Below, piece by piece: positions 10,959 through 27,802 of a stretch of DNA of 35,047 nt; the stretch's first letter is position 1, and each line of letters opens with the position of its first letter. The position numbers and the translations under genes were made by a program. The notes beneath the pieces are model-generated. The model saw only the letters and a list, made by a program, of their open reading frames with translations, ran no database searches and was not told the origin of the DNA. Source of the stretch: a virus. Where the stretch lies: positions 1-35,047 of IMG/VR virus record IMGVR_UViG_3300009545_000046; one strand, 5' to 3'.

Positions 10959-11345
10959 ATGGTGGACGTCACTTCGGTAGCCACGATCTTTGGCTCATTG
11001 GGTGCAGGATCAATAGCATTCGTCGGCGGGGCCGTTTGGTTAGTGCGCAAGGTACGTGGATTTAATACCAAGTTCGACGAGTTCATAGAAGATTGGAACG
11101 GCACTAAAGCTAGACCGGGTGTCCCTCATAAGCCTGGCGTCATGGAACGTTTGTCGGATCAAGATGCAGCGCTAGCCAAGATCGACAACCGCGTCATCGC
11201 CGTTGAAAACGAGATTGCCTTCAATGGCGGTAAATCCATGAAAGACATCGTGCATCGTGTAGATGGAAGCATGACCCACGTCAGGCGATTCGTGGACGAC
11301 CTAAACACTCGGGTGACAAACCTAGAGAAACGAGGTCGGTCATGA
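10959..11345 (+). CDS. membrane-anchored coiled-coil protein (DUF2746-like)
   Basis: This encodes 128 residues with one N-terminal membrane helix (about 5-30), a basic stop-transfer stretch, then a hydrophilic coiled-coil-like tail. The tail has N-G-G-K-S-M-K-D (about 84-91), resembling DUF2746-type proteins found next to lysis genes in actinophages. The ATG at 10959 lies five bases after AGGGAG. The gene overlaps the next one by ATGA. It may help lysis or anchor a membrane complex. Confidence 0.5.
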   Translation: MVDVTSVATIFGSLGAGSIAFVGGAVWLVRKVRGFNTKFDEFIEDWNGTKARPGVPHKPGVMERLSDQDAALAKIDNRVIAVENEIAFNGGKSMKDIVHRVDGSMTHVRRFVDDLNTRVTNLEKRGRS

Positions 11346-16950: not shown

Positions 16951-17202
16951 ATGAGAGAACTCACCGAAGATGAGCGGCGTAATTACGCCGCTCATCTAAT
17001 CCTTGAACGCGCTCGAACCGTCGAATTCCTCGATGTCGTAGAAGGAGCTACAGCGTTCTTCGATTTCAAAGATGATGAATACCTGGATGAAGATGTCGCC
17101 GAACTTATCGATACCGATATCGGCAAGGCAATCATTCGCGTGAGCTGGCCGGATGATGACGGTGTCTACAGTGACAATTTCGGAGACGAGGACGAGGAGT
17201 GA
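16951..17202 (+). CDS. very acidic 83-residue protein, unknown
   Basis: More than a third of residues are Asp or Glu, ending G-D-E-D-E-E. The fold looks like two helices then strands. Strongly acidic small phage proteins often act as DNA mimics that occupy host DNA-binding proteins, but that is only suggested by composition. The ATG follows AGGAAAAGGAA. The stop overlaps the next GTG start (GTGA). Codons 6-16 form a 30-bp palindrome, described separately. Confidence 0.65.
   Translation: MRELTEDERRNYAAHLILERARTVEFLDVVEGATAFFDFKDDEYLDEDVAELIDTDIGKAIIRVSWPDDDGVYSDNFGDEDEE
16968..16997 (+). other. 30-bp perfect palindrome within a coding region
   Basis: The 15 bases 16968-16982 (AGATGAGCGGCGTAA) are the exact reverse complement of 16983-16997. 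The structure starts 17 bases after the ATG of the acidic protein gene and encodes its residues 6-16. RNA would fold into a very stable hairpin at the start of the gene. On DNA it is a symmetric dimer-binding site. There is no T-tract, so simple termination is not expected. Confidence 0.9.
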
Positions 17203-17696
17203 CGGTTGAGCTTGAGACCAGGTCTCACCGGCCTGGCTGGGATGAGACCTGGCTGGCCATGGCGCAGACCGTGGCCTTCCGCAGTCGTTGCACCAAGCGA
17301 CAGGTGGGCGCGCTCATCGTCACGCGCGACAATCGCCCACTGATCGCGTCGTACAACGGGCCGGCGCGAGGACATCAAGTCTCGGAGGATTGCCGAGACT
17401 GGTGTCCCCGGTCTCAGTCTCATGAGACCAGCGCGAACTACGACACCTGTTTCAGTATCCACGCCGAGGCCAACGCACTGGTACGCGCCGACTACACCGA
17501 AATGCACGGTGGCACGATCTACGTCTCATCGGCGTCGTGTATCAACTGCGCCAAGTTGGTCGCCAATTCCGGTCTCAGCCGTCTCGTGCACGTGGTCTCA
17601 CCTAAGGATCAGTATCGAGACCCGGACGGGGTTGAGACCTACCTCCGCATGTGCGGTCTCAGTGCTCAGCGTGCGACCAGGGTTGAGACCCTATGA
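17199..17696 (+). CDS. dCMP/deoxycytidylate deaminase family protein
   Basis: This encodes 165 residues of the zinc-dependent cytidine/deoxycytidylate deaminase fold. His88-Ala-Glu90 is the catalytic H-A-E and S-C-I-N-C (113-117) supplies Cys114 and Cys117. The usual Pro before the first Cys is Ser here. C-T-K-R-Q-V-G-A-L-I-V (31-41) is the family opening and S-Y-N-G-P-A-R-G (51-58) the substrate loop. Expected role: dCMP to dUMP, feeding dTMP synthesis; no thymidylate synthase is in the window. The GTG start overlaps the upstream stop. The N-terminal 10 residues, the loop at 70-77 and the tail after 125 are where TGAGACC motifs fall, often read as Glu-Thr. Cys65 and Cys69 could hold a second metal. 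Confidence 0.88.
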   Translation: MTVELETRSHRPGWDETWLAMAQTVAFRSRCTKRQVGALIVTRDNRPLIASYNGPARGHQVSEDCRDWCPRSQSHETSANYDTCFSIHAEANALVRADYTEMHGGTIYVSSASCINCAKLVANSGLSRLVHVVSPKDQYRDPDGVETYLRMCGLSAQRATRVETL

Positions 17697-18000
17697 GACC
17701 CGAGACCAGTGGTGAGACCGTGAGACCAGCGGACGATGCGAGCGAAGCCGACTGGGCCGAATGGTACTTCGATCACCGAAACGACCCTGAGACCGAAGAG
17801 GAATTAATGCCACTCCCGGGCAGCCCCATGCAGTTGAAATACCGTCGACCCGGCAAGGATCGAATGGAGAGCACAACGGTAATCGTGCCGGAGAACTGGT
17901 ACGACATGACGACGAAAGAACGCAAAGACTGGGCCCAGGGCGAATGTAATCGCGTCTGCCCTGGCGCGACCGACGTCAGCCTTCGGTGAGACTTGAGACC
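17214..18000. repeat. dense cluster of GAGACC/GGTCTC (core TGAGACC), 17 copies
   Basis: GAGACC starts at 17214, 17244, 17424, 17617, 17634, 17685, 17695, 17702, 17714, 17722, 17789 and 17995. GGTCTC starts at 17221, 17410, 17571, 17594 and 17655. Fifteen of 17 extend to TGAGACC or GGTCTCA. Near-copies with GAGAC/GTCTC occur at 17183, 17379, 17395, 17417, 17523, 17581, 17988 and 18040. By eye the rest of the window has about 16 hexamers in 34 kb, close to chance. Pairs form inverted repeats: 17213-17227 (one-base centre), 17378-17400 (8-bp stem) and 17417-17428 (12-bp palindrome). Some starts are 23 bases apart (17221/17244; 17571/17594/17617). Confidence 0.93.
17693..17989 (+). CDS. unknown 98-residue protein
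   Basis: ATG overlaps the deaminase stop (ATGA). The first 30 residues are acidic and carry several GAGACC-encoded Glu-Thr pairs. The rest includes K-Y-R-R-P-G-K-D-R and N-W-Y-D-M-T-T-K-E-R-K-D-W, a helix typical of small phage DNA-metabolism accessory proteins. No family recognised. It is placed between deaminase and resolvase genes. Confidence 0.65.
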   Translation: MRPETSGETVRPADDASEADWAEWYFDHRNDPETEEELMPLPGSPMQLKYRRPGKDRMESTTVIVPENWYDMTTKERKDWAQGECNRVCPGATDVSLR

Positions 18001-18014
18001 AGGAAGGAAACGGA

Positions 18015-18536
18015 ATGAAAGTGATCGGACTCGATCTCAGTCTCAACGGGACGGGTATCGCCTATTCTGACGGTCACACCAAGGTCGTCAAACTGGACGA
18101 GAAAAAGGGCGATCGTCGTCTCATCATCATCCAGGACGAAGTCATCGCCGCGCTTCAGCCGCACGTCGACCTGGCGGTGATCGAGACTCCGCTCCCGCGC
18201 GGATTCTCGATTCACACACAGGGCATGGTGCACGGCGCGGTGCGCGTGGCTCTCATCAAGGCCGGCGTGCCTTACGTGCACATTTCGCCGGGCACGCTCA
18301 AAGCTTTCGCCACGGGGAGCGGGAAGGCCGACAAGGCGGCGATGATCCTGGCCGCGTACAAGCGCGGCGGCCGAGAATTCGTTGACGACAACGAGTGTGA
18401 CGCCTGGTGGCTGCGCGCCGCCGGCCTCGATCAGTACGGCGCGGCAGAGGTCAAGCTGCCCGAAGCGCAGCGGAACAAGCTAGCCGCCGTGAAGGACTGG
18501 CCGACGCTGGTTGGTCCGACCATCGTTGCGGGCTAA
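18015..18536 (+). CDS. RuvC-like Holliday junction resolvase
   Basis: This encodes 173 residues of the RNase H-like RuvC fold. Asp7 in G-L-D-L-S-L-N-G-T-G is the first catalytic acid. Glu57 in V-I-E-T-P is the second, and Asp125/Glu127/Asp129 in D-D-N-E-C-D-A-W-W-L the last. A G-S-G-K-A-D-K loop (101-107) supplies the conserved Lys. Length matches RuvC. It would resolve branched DNA before packaging or during recombination. The ATG follows AGGAAGGAAACGGA. It is the last gene of its operon and is followed by a strong terminator. Confidence 0.88.
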   Translation: MKVIGLDLSLNGTGIAYSDGHTKVVKLDEKKGDRRLIIIQDEVIAALQPHVDLAVIETPLPRGFSIHTQGMVHGAVRVALIKAGVPYVHISPGTLKAFATGSGKADKAAMILAAYKRGGREFVDDNECDAWWLRAAGLDQYGAAEVKLPEAQRNKLAAVKDWPTLVGPTIVAG

Positions 18537-25306: not shown

Positions 25307-27802
25307 GTGACCGATCGTACCAGCAATTCTTATGCGCTGGCACACGACTACGCAACGCGTGGCTGGGCAGTCATCCCGCTGCATTGGGGTGTGGGTGGTG
25401 GTTGCTCATGTGCTGGTGGCCCGAATCCGTGTGGTGGTGACTCCGCCGCAAAGCACCCGCTGAAGAAGCGCTGGTCATCGGGTGATCGGTTGTCTGGCGC
25501 TGACGTGCACGCCATTTGGATGGACGAGACGCCGAACGCTAACGTCGGCATCCGAACCGGCGTGATCAGCGGTTTCTTCGTGCTCGACGTCGACCCGAAG
25601 GCCGGCGGATTCCAGTCCCTGCAAAAGCTTCAGGCCGACATCGGCGTATTGCCCAATACGTACGTGGTCAAAACCCCGAGTGGCGGCTATCACTTCTACT
25701 TCACCATGCCAGACTTCCCGATTCGCAATTCCGCGAATCGGGAGCTGCTGCGTCGCTACGGCCCCGGGCTCGACATCCGTGGTGACGGCGGTCAGGTCGT
25801 GGCCCCGCCGAGCGTCACGCCACATGGCAAGTACACGGTGCAGATGAACGCGCCGATCGTGGCCGCGCCGAATGCCCTGCTTGACCTGCTGCGCGCCCAA
25901 GGCGACATTGCCGGCCCGGATGCCACACCGATCGAAGACCTGCCGGCAGCGGCCGACCTGAACGCCAGCGAGGCGCAGCGCGCGCAGAAATACGCTCAGA
26001 GCACGATCGAAATCGTCACGGCGGAATACCGTGACGCGGTGCCGGGCACTGGGAACGACACGCTGTTCAGGTCGGCATGCTCGGCAATCGAAATCGCTCA
26101 GGCACCCTGGAACACGTTCACCGTCGCGCAGGTTTACCAAACCCTGCACGACGCGGCAAGAGCCCGCAGAGCAACACATCCACAAGGCGGTGGCCAAAGT
26201 GATGCAGAGTTCGAGCAGGTATGGCGCTCAGCGCGTAATCGCACGGTAGGTCAGGGGCGCGCACTGCCCGTGAATCCGAGCGAGGCATTTGCGTTCCCTT
26301 TCGGGGATACGGGCGTCGCTGATCCTTTCGCCGCGCCCAGCATCGTCGACATGCCGACTGCGCCCATCCCGCCAGCCGCGCCGGCACCTGCGGCTATGGA
26401 GAGCGTGAGCGCTCCCGAGACGGAACGAGCCATTTCCGCGGCCGTAAAAGTCGCCGAGCCTCCGGTGGTGGAAACGACCGAGGCGGGCATCGACATCCTG
26501 GCAACGCTTCCCGTGGAATTCTACGAGCGACGCGTGTGGCTCAAAGAATTGCGACGCATCGCGCATGAGCGCATGGCAGCAGCGGATGCTGTGCTGGGAA
26601 GCTATCTGGCCATCGTCGCCAGCCAGATTCCGCCCGGCCTGCGCCTGGACACTTCTATCGGCTCGCCGTTGACCGCGTCGCTGTACGTCATCATGGTGGG
26701 CCCGTCCGGGCGCGGCAAGACCAAGGGCACTTCGGTCGCCAAGAAACTGTATCGCGAACAGATCGTGTCGGAAGTCCTCGCTACTGGCGAAGGGCTTGTC
26801 GAGGCATTCTGGGGTAAAACCAAAATCCAAGATCCCACGACATTGAAATTCACTACTGAACGCGCGCAAATCCACACGAACAAGCTTTTCGTTCTCGACG
26901 AAGGTCAAGGCTTGTTGCAGATGGAGAAGCGCGTCGGCAATATGACCGGCGTGATTCTCCGGAGCGCGTGGTCCGGTAGCGACGCTGGTCAGTCCAACGC
27001 GACCGAGGAACGCAAGCGCAAGCTCGAAGCCGGCTCTTACAATCTCGGCCTCGTCATGGGTATGCAGAACGAAGTGGCCGGCGAGTTGCTCGCCGATCCT
27101 TCACTGGGCACGCCGCAGCGATTCCTCTGGTTCTCCGTCATCGACCCCACGATGAAGCTCACCGACGTCGATCGCCCTTTCGATGACGTGCTTACGCACC
27201 CTATTCACCCGAGTCACATCCGGCTCGCGCCGCCGTCATTTATCGGCGGATCGACGACACTCGATCTCACACCCATGCCGATGACCCTCGACGCCAGTAT
27301 TCGTTTGCGGCTCCGCGAGGAAGACTTCCTCAAGAGCACGGGTCAAATCGCTGTCGATGAACAGGATTCACAGAAGCCAGCCTCCCTGGGCAAACTGGCC
27401 ATGATCTTCGCCTACCTGGACGGTCACGACCACGTCAGCGAAGACGATTGGGACATGGCCACGACGATTTACGACACGTCGGCGCTCGTGCGTGAACAGC
27501 TACTGGAGATAGAGCACCGCCGGCAACGTGACGGCAAGCTCGCCATCGCCCAGGACAAGGCCCGCGAGAAGCAGGCCATCGGCCGCTACGGTCATGAGCA
27601 GGTCGAAACAATGCAGAAGATCTACGACTGGATCGCCCACGGCAAGACCACCCGACGCGCTATCACCCAAAACGCCAAGGGCGCACGACGAGAAGTGCTC
27701 GCCGACGTGCTCGATCAGATGGTCAAGAACGGATACCTGAAAGAGATTGACGCGGGCAATCGGCAGATTCGTTACGAGCGCGTCGAAGGCAAGGCCCCCT
27801 GA
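25307..27802 (+). CDS. prim-pol/ATPase replication protein (bifunctional primase-polymerase with helicase-like domain)
   Basis: This encodes 831 residues. N-terminal prim-pol domain (PF09250-type): a Cys-rich loop (33-42) and K-H-P-L (49-52), catalytic Asp94 and Asp96 in L-D-V-D-P-K, His129 in G-G-Y-H-F-Y, and G-L-D-I-R-G-D-G-G (154-162). A Pro/Ala linker (about 325-380) carries D-P-F-A-A-P (339-344). The second half is a P-loop ATPase of the DUF3987/helicase type: G-P-S-G-R-G-K-T (465-472), L-D-E (530-532), then a C-terminal winged-helix-like part (about 760-825). It should prime and unwind at the phage origin. GTG start; AAAGGA lies five bases upstream. The 97-base gap before it contains no good gene. 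Confidence 0.9.
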   Translation: MTDRTSNSYALAHDYATRGWAVIPLHWGVGGGCSCAGGPNPCGGDSAAKHPLKKRWSSGDRLSGADVHAIWMDETPNANVGIRTGVISGFFVLDVDPKAGGFQSLQKLQADIGVLPNTYVVKTPSGGYHFYFTMPDFPIRNSANRELLRRYGPGLDIRGDGGQVVAPPSVTPHGKYTVQMNAPIVAAPNALLDLLRAQGDIAGPDATPIEDLPAAADLNASEAQRAQKYAQSTIEIVTAEYRDAVPGTGNDTLFRSACSAIEIAQAPWNTFTVAQVYQTLHDAARARRATHPQGGGQSDAEFEQVWRSARNRTVGQGRALPVNPSEAFAFPFGDTGVADPFAAPSIVDMPTAPIPPAAPAPAAMESVSAPETERAISAAVKVAEPPVVETTEAGIDILATLPVEFYERRVWLKELRRIAHERMAAADAVLGSYLAIVASQIPPGLRLDTSIGSPLTASLYVIMVGPSGRGKTKGTSVAKKLYREQIVSEVLATGEGLVEAFWGKTKIQDPTTLKFTTERAQIHTNKLFVLDEGQGLLQMEKRVGNMTGVILRSAWSGSDAGQSNATEERKRKLEAGSYNLGLVMGMQNEVAGELLADPSLGTPQRFLWFSVIDPTMKLTDVDRPFDDVLTHPIHPSHIRLAPPSFIGGSTTLDLTPMPMTLDASIRLRLREEDFLKSTGQIAVDEQDSQKPASLGKLAMIFAYLDGHDHVSEDDWDMATTIYDTSALVREQLLEIEHRRQRDGKLAIAQDKAREKQAIGRYGHEQVETMQKIYDWIAHGKTTRRAITQNAKGARREVLADVLDQMVKNGYLKEIDAGNRQIRYERVEGKAP

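Follow-up and report, generated by a model that had tools for sequence, protein, structure and literature searches.

Introduction

The closest described counterparts of the arrays considered here are the clt/TRS sites of pSVH1, pIJ101, pJV1 and pWTY27, where short repeated words lie near the gene for an FtsK/TraB-like translocase. Known clt loci occupy about 50-175 bp, hold few direct repeats and are bound by the translocase, and in Streptomyces the clt/TRS words lie partly in coding sequence and differ from element to element. TraB reads 8-bp TRS repeats at clt (PMC4170104) and TraA binds a clt of 7-bp repeats (PMC3583192); the clt word of pWTY27 is TGACACC (PMC3583192). A further precedent is SpdA2 of pIJ101, which binds sps, a word within its own coding sequence (PMC4170104). 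Unlike the present arrays, sps is a 12-bp palindrome in 1-3 copies, and SpdA2 affects plasmid stability, not transfer. The transfer module of the Streptomyces phage-plasmid pZL12 consists of a major tra gene and two adjacent genes, and the literature searched reports no cis site for it. FtsK KOPS and SpoIIIE SRS are likewise short words tied to an FtsK-type pump, polar and spread genome-wide. Repeated asymmetric or short binding sites also occur in phage or plasmid DNA as the stoperators of Cluster A mycobacteriophages and the parS clusters of ParB; their readers and layout differ from those of the present arrays.

The window, by which we mean the whole stretch of 35,047 nucleotides that was analysed, is a linear IMG/VR record carrying a dense cluster of TGAGACC, a word that resembles that of pWTY27. 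Like clt/TRS words, those described here are short, repeated, partly coding, different per element and placed near a translocase gene; unlike them, they run to 15-40 copies over about 1 kb on both strands, have a second array 56 kb off, and by covariation follow the HTH of a membrane protein. They recall SpdA2 and sps in that the word of a plasmid Spd protein lies inside its own gene, and differ from KOPS and SRS in being clustered and in both orientations. The gene order is that of the pZL12 transfer module (membrane-HTH protein, second protein, FtsK-like protein), although no strong array was detected in ZL12. We propose, with a probability of about 0.68 judged from sequence, that the cluster in the window is a distal array of sites for a membrane-anchored HTH protein, clt- or centromere-like in serving translocase-driven DNA movement.

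One word across a deaminase gene

GAGACC occurs 33 times in the window, and 17 of these copies fall within 787 bp (17214-18000), 12 on the plus and five on the minus strand. Of the 18 copies of the heptamer TGAGACC, 15 lie at 17213-18000; both strands and all three reading frames are used. This recount agrees with an earlier note made from the sequence alone, both in the 17 hexamers, 15 of them TGAGACC, and in their spread over strands and frames. Dinucleotide shuffles gave an expected 4.5 TGAGACC per window and never reached the observed 18, whilst every other 7-mer in the window stays at six copies or fewer per 800 bp. The core word is YGAGAC(C), with CGAGACC and TGAGACT as further variants (Table 1).

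Table 1. Positions, within the window, of the array, its notable parts and the genes under and around it
Feature	Position	Strand	Remarks
Distal array	17213..18000	both	15 TGAGACC, 2 CGAGACC and TGAGACT variants; irregular spacing
Inverted pair TGAGACC-A-GGTCTCA	17213..17227		deaminase 5' end
Inverted pair GGTCTCAgtctcaTGAGACC	17410..17429		deaminase variable loop; wholly conserved in G002
Densest head-to-tail run	17684..17727	+	TGAGACC x4 and CGAGACC, spanning the junction of deaminase and 98-aa ORF
Final copy, within a TGAGACT-TGAGACC pair	17994..18000	+	12-nt gap there in G002
dCMP deaminase gene	17199..17696	+	PF00383, E=1.9e-14; hosts 10 TGAGACC
98-aa ORF	17693..17989	+	first codons nearly all motif; different start in G002
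RuvC-like resolvase gene	18015..18536	+	PHROG 159, E=5.6e-36; downstream boundary of the array
Prim-Pol (PF09250) primase-polymerase	25307..27802	+	candidate word reader, set aside

The zinc site of the deaminase (HAE, CxxC) is intact. In an alignment with four phage homologues, the motif-coded residues fall mostly in the variable N-terminus, one loop and the C-terminal tail, but a few copies encode conserved residues (DETW, VETYL), and the earlier claim that the motifs avoid the conserved core thus holds for most positions and fails for these. A synonymous null that kept the protein and chose codons according to the phage's usage (3000 draws) gave 0.25 TGAGACC in the deaminase gene (maximum 4) against the 10 seen, and 0.11 in the next ORF against 4. 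This excess over the synonymous expectation means that the constraint acts on the DNA, in line with the earlier note, which had placed it on the nucleic acid. The best deaminase match, from the Actinomycetia phage DSL-LC01, has no comparable cluster at the equivalent locus. Perhaps a gene tolerant of change, lying where structural genes give way to replication genes, simply offered space for a distal array; a second anchor point in the deaminase gene may also help DNA looping.

Relatives of the phage and turnover of the sites

A 104.8 kb contig, G001, overlaps the window and is 99.84% identical to it over the 10.5 kb compared, and the 35 kb contig G002 shares 76-82% DNA identity with it. Among the genes of the phage are those for tape measure, tail and terminase, and we regard it as a large phage of the actinobacterial type; relatives of its translocase module (below) occur in circular phage-plasmids. 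Megablast against known phages returned no DNA match, and searching IMG/VR by translocase and Prim-Pol gave no close relatives beyond the contigs already found. Many IMG/VR matches to the tripled word were ordinary in-frame tandem protein repeats; a reversed-word control found 0 contigs, against 7 for the true word. The phage also carries two genes of RNA-repair type (L124, 1895-2656 and 17841-18407), a RlaP nucleotidyltransferase (PF10127) and a PNKP-like phosphatase (PF25109).

G002 retains the cluster, in which single sites have been lost and gained by point changes and by small motif-bearing indels (6, 12 and 21-23 nt). Of the 15 sites, eight survive unchanged in G002, compared with 32.5% for other 7-mers; in the reverse comparison eight of 10 do. 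Such fast turnover, with small indels that consist of the motif itself, is what a self-spreading or mutation-driven repeat without function would show. However, the word is found in only two places, is kept above background between relatives and changes with the HTH across lineages, the last of which speaks against the purely self-spreading repeat among the options of the earlier note; we regard this explanation as very improbable.

A second array and its module

G001 holds a second array at 71.16-72.15 kb, 56 kb from the first, with 25 GAGACC copies, 12 on the plus and 13 on the minus strand, the words being TGAGACC and CGAGACC. Neither this array nor that of the window (12 and five) has the polar orientation of KOPS or SRS. 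The word is confined to these two places in 105 kb, which speaks against a general word bias, named beforehand as a refuting outcome; in the count of 7-mers over the window TGAGACC alone is so clustered, and with the second array the enrichment is not confined to the deaminase operon. G051, a contig from the same metagenome as G002, carries a homologous second array with 18 TGAGACC, in which turnover is heavy and density conserved.

The second array covers three adjoining stretches: the 3' portion of the gene encoding a 366-aa protein, the intergenic spacer, and the 5' portion of the gene encoding a 453-aa protein. An RNA-binding array, as suggested earlier, sits poorly with this partly intergenic position and with the use of both strands. 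The module, known from G001 and outside the window, runs in the order 366-aa membrane-HTH protein, 453-aa membrane protein and 726-aa FtsK/SpoIIIE-like ATPase, the FtsK/TraB-like translocase. Some 0.8 kb separates this primary array from the translocase gene, so that a word beside a TraB/FtsK-like gene, as in clt/TRS, is found at the primary array of G001, the array of the window being distal. The 366-aa protein combines a Spd/DUF2637-like membrane part, a disordered linker and a predicted C-terminal HTH ('...LSRATVARRLATARERF'). It has no Pfam match but aligns with its equivalents, including those of L157 and L165, both of which match PF10935. Predicted structures are of low confidence (pLDDT about 48-55: 48 for the full membrane protein, 54.5 for the HTH fragment), a search for solved structural relatives of the HTH found none, and Pfam gave weak generic HTH matches only for the L148-type HTH domain. 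Between the two membrane-protein genes lies a near-perfect palindrome, CGCGCCCCGGTCTCATGAGACCGGGGCGCG (L124 11840-11872; G001 about 71.84-71.87 kb), built around two motif copies.

Considering that the arrays overlap gene starts and this intergenic palindrome, and that HTH proteins are often regulators, a silencer, operator or regulatory array for the operon, possibly with autoregulation by the HTH protein, has to be weighed. Yet operators seldom consist of 15 to 40 copies scattered deep within coding sequence, the protein proposed as reader carries membrane helices, and a deaminase gene 56 kb off is also filled with the word; we consider regulation improbable as the explanation.

Replication-origin iterons, with a phage initiator or the Prim-Pol as their binding protein, would suit the place of the window array between tail and replication genes. 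Indeed, searching by the word alone found eight unrelated viral contigs with mixed-orientation TGAGACC clusters beside primase-helicase genes. These clusters, intergenic and often AT-rich (L042 3161-3974; L052 6314-6664; L037 643-907; L013 619-891; L105 713-1029; L024 4757-5528; L091 5893-6012; L137 3835-4129), adjoin DUF927, VapE, DUF5906/PriCT_2 or AEP+AAA_25 genes, and are likely origin iterons sharing the TGAGACC word. The window array, however, has no AT-rich region adjoining it, and the Prim-Pol gene is 8 kb off; there is no GC-skew switch at either array, and an array of equal size stands in a different module. An origin is therefore improbable here.

The Prim-Pol was also considered as the reader of the word, by analogy with template-specific primase-polymerases, and was rejected: PF09250 is present in three of 50 cluster-bearing records, two of them of this phage type, a scarcity that also counts against the origin.

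Arrays beside related translocases

Relatives of the ATPase were found in circular actinobacterial phage-plasmids and in phages, several of these records combining terminase, portal or tail genes with GntR or KilB plasmid functions. As in G001, a membrane protein is encoded upstream of the ATPase in the relatives (with DUF2637 in L157 and L165); several of these membrane proteins have a predicted HTH at their end, and ZL12 shares the three-gene order of G001. Near each of 22 FtsK-like ATPase genes we took the highest-scoring 7-mer cluster that occupied both strands and several frames: 15 of the 22 loci reached a -log10p of at least 10 and 18 a value of at least 8, seven being without a strong array by the stricter threshold. 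Among control tiles, four of 46 reached 10 or more, two of which are the window cluster and its G002 homologue, and one a short GAATTCC cluster. The latter, with eight copies on both strands in about 70 bp of Saccharomonospora phage PIS 136 (L144, about 11130-11200), is probably an iteron or operator.

The words differ between lineages. GAGACC is used by the window phage, S. albidoflavus and S. muensis, TGAGCCG by L148 and L158, and CGGACC-type words by L159, L161 and L163, whilst phage PIS 136 has CGGAACC, pAmyja1 CGGGGAC and pGBA129-24a GGACGGG. With relatives using other words, the density of type IIS restriction sites to which the earlier note drew attention seems incidental. The array lies mostly inside the membrane-protein gene and fills the disordered linker in most loci checked; in phage P1312 the HTH comes first, followed by the linker and then the membrane part. 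Most relatives carry one array, beside the translocase, as do L149, L148, L158 and P1312, where it is the only one. A distal second array is found only in the window phage type and in pAmyja1, which has two weaker CGGGGAC arrays (L145 25625-26229 and L146 36853-37444).

Directly after the translocase gene of two elements, whose translocase C-terminus is unlike that of the relatives, stands an array of seven CCCACTA copies in 120 bp (L153 12221-12339, L154 12218-12336), which may be another type of docking site.

The probable reader of the word

Arrays that adjoin translocase genes invite the view that they are recognition sequences of TRS or KOPS type, read by the translocase's own C-terminal wHTH or gamma domain, as TraB and TraA read theirs; Pfam FtsK_gamma is indeed present in some of the translocase relatives. 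Against this, GAGACC is paired with three unrelated translocase C-termini (G001, L149, L155), and the words differ within pairs whose C-termini are nearly identical (L148 and L149; L155 and L159). Word similarity was not significantly correlated with that of the translocase, with Mantel values of 0.15 for the C-terminus (p=0.09) and 0.02 for the core (p=0.40), against r=0.42 (p=0.0006) for the HTH and 0.32 (p=0.004) for the rest of the membrane protein. Reading by the translocase thus appears unlikely, and by covariation a word read by its C-terminus, as in clt/TRS, is not what these loci display; since the word does not track that C-terminus, we do not claim membership of the clt/TRS class.

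Judged by these sequence comparisons, the word follows the HTH of the membrane protein and not the translocase. L155 and L159 amount to a natural swap: translocase, gamma domain and membrane part are common to both, the HTH differs, and the words are CGAGACC and CGGACCG. Conversely, L155 and L149 differ in the translocase C-terminus, yet they have the HTH type in common and share the word GAGACC. It was predicted beforehand that loci with an L155-type HTH would carry GAGACC-type arrays, and all three new loci had GAGAC arrays (CGAGACC x20, TGAGACC x14 and TGAGACG x9), with the caveat that the query extended into some 20 residues of the linker, part of which the motif encodes. With an HTH-only profile, every match at E<1e-9 came with a YGAG-core array, weakly so in L176, and none of 32 weak profile matches had an array at a -log10p of at least 10. 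In three of six extended loci, ATPase-sized genes carrying a Walker A motif lie 1.5-4.3 kb from the array. The HTH of G001 is weakly similar to those of L149 and L155 (SW 56-58), and about equally to that of L157 (63), which has a different word.

A putative residue-to-base code

In a recognition helix of the form x1 x2 [AS] T x3 x4 [RK] R L, serine at x1 goes with T at base 1 (12/12) and proline with C or G (3/3), whilst alanine at x4 goes with C at base 7 (6/6) and glycine with G (9/9); neither link has an exception in 15 rows, the rows being related so that these counts are not independent events. Base 5 is A in all nine rows with R/K at x2 and C in five of the six with P/Q/E, the exception being L206 (1582-1849; HTH SEATAARRL, word TGAGAGC). 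In column tests the top-ranked position was x4 for base 7 and x1, together with a coupled R/K position, for base 1. The base-5 rule is confounded by relatedness, since columns that distinguish a single clade score equally high there; it is nonetheless backed by L208, which has R at x2 and A at base 5 on a TGAGCCG-like backbone.

Proposed role

That the window array consists of sites for the 366-aa HTH protein is, in our judgement, highly probable, and the suggestion in the earlier note of a repeated DNA site to which a phage protein binds finds good support. We posit that the HTH of this protein would bind the TGAGACC word, and that many bound copies would keep the DNA of the phage or phage-plasmid close to the translocase, at the membrane or septum. 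DNA so held could pass from cell to cell or from one hyphal compartment to another, or be segregated, as with clt or a centromere, and the array in the deaminase gene would give a second anchor point or help to bridge the genome. Partition comes nearest among the options listed earlier; the module is encoded 56 kb off, outside the window. For a role of the arrays in transfer or segregation, we would put the chances at about even.

More broadly, actinobacterial phages and phage-plasmids could possess a self-contained docking system, in which a membrane HTH protein reads an array in its own disordered linker, copies of which are seeded into unrelated genes. A residue-to-base code in the recognition helix would set the word, tying the evolution of word and reader together and possibly giving the FtsK-like pump a mark of DNA identity; for this generalisation the balance of probabilities is level. 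A search of the open-access literature found no description of word arrays read by a membrane-protein HTH. Were the idea correct, phages would have a second kind of site for transfer or segregation, one read by a membrane protein instead of the pump, with sites written into protein-coding DNA at a cost borne by disordered linkers. It would come with a testable code (S/P to base 1; R/K or P/Q/E to base 5; A/G to base 7), and clt-like sites and their readers would become predictable from sequence in many unannotated actinobacterial phage-plasmids. Perhaps it would also offer a handle on how FtsK/TraB-type transfer selects double-stranded DNA, an open question for Streptomyces plasmids.

Separately, related viral contigs (L135 7131-7180, L138 295-344) have a small inverted TGAGACC group next to a tRNA gene, possibly an integration-site feature.
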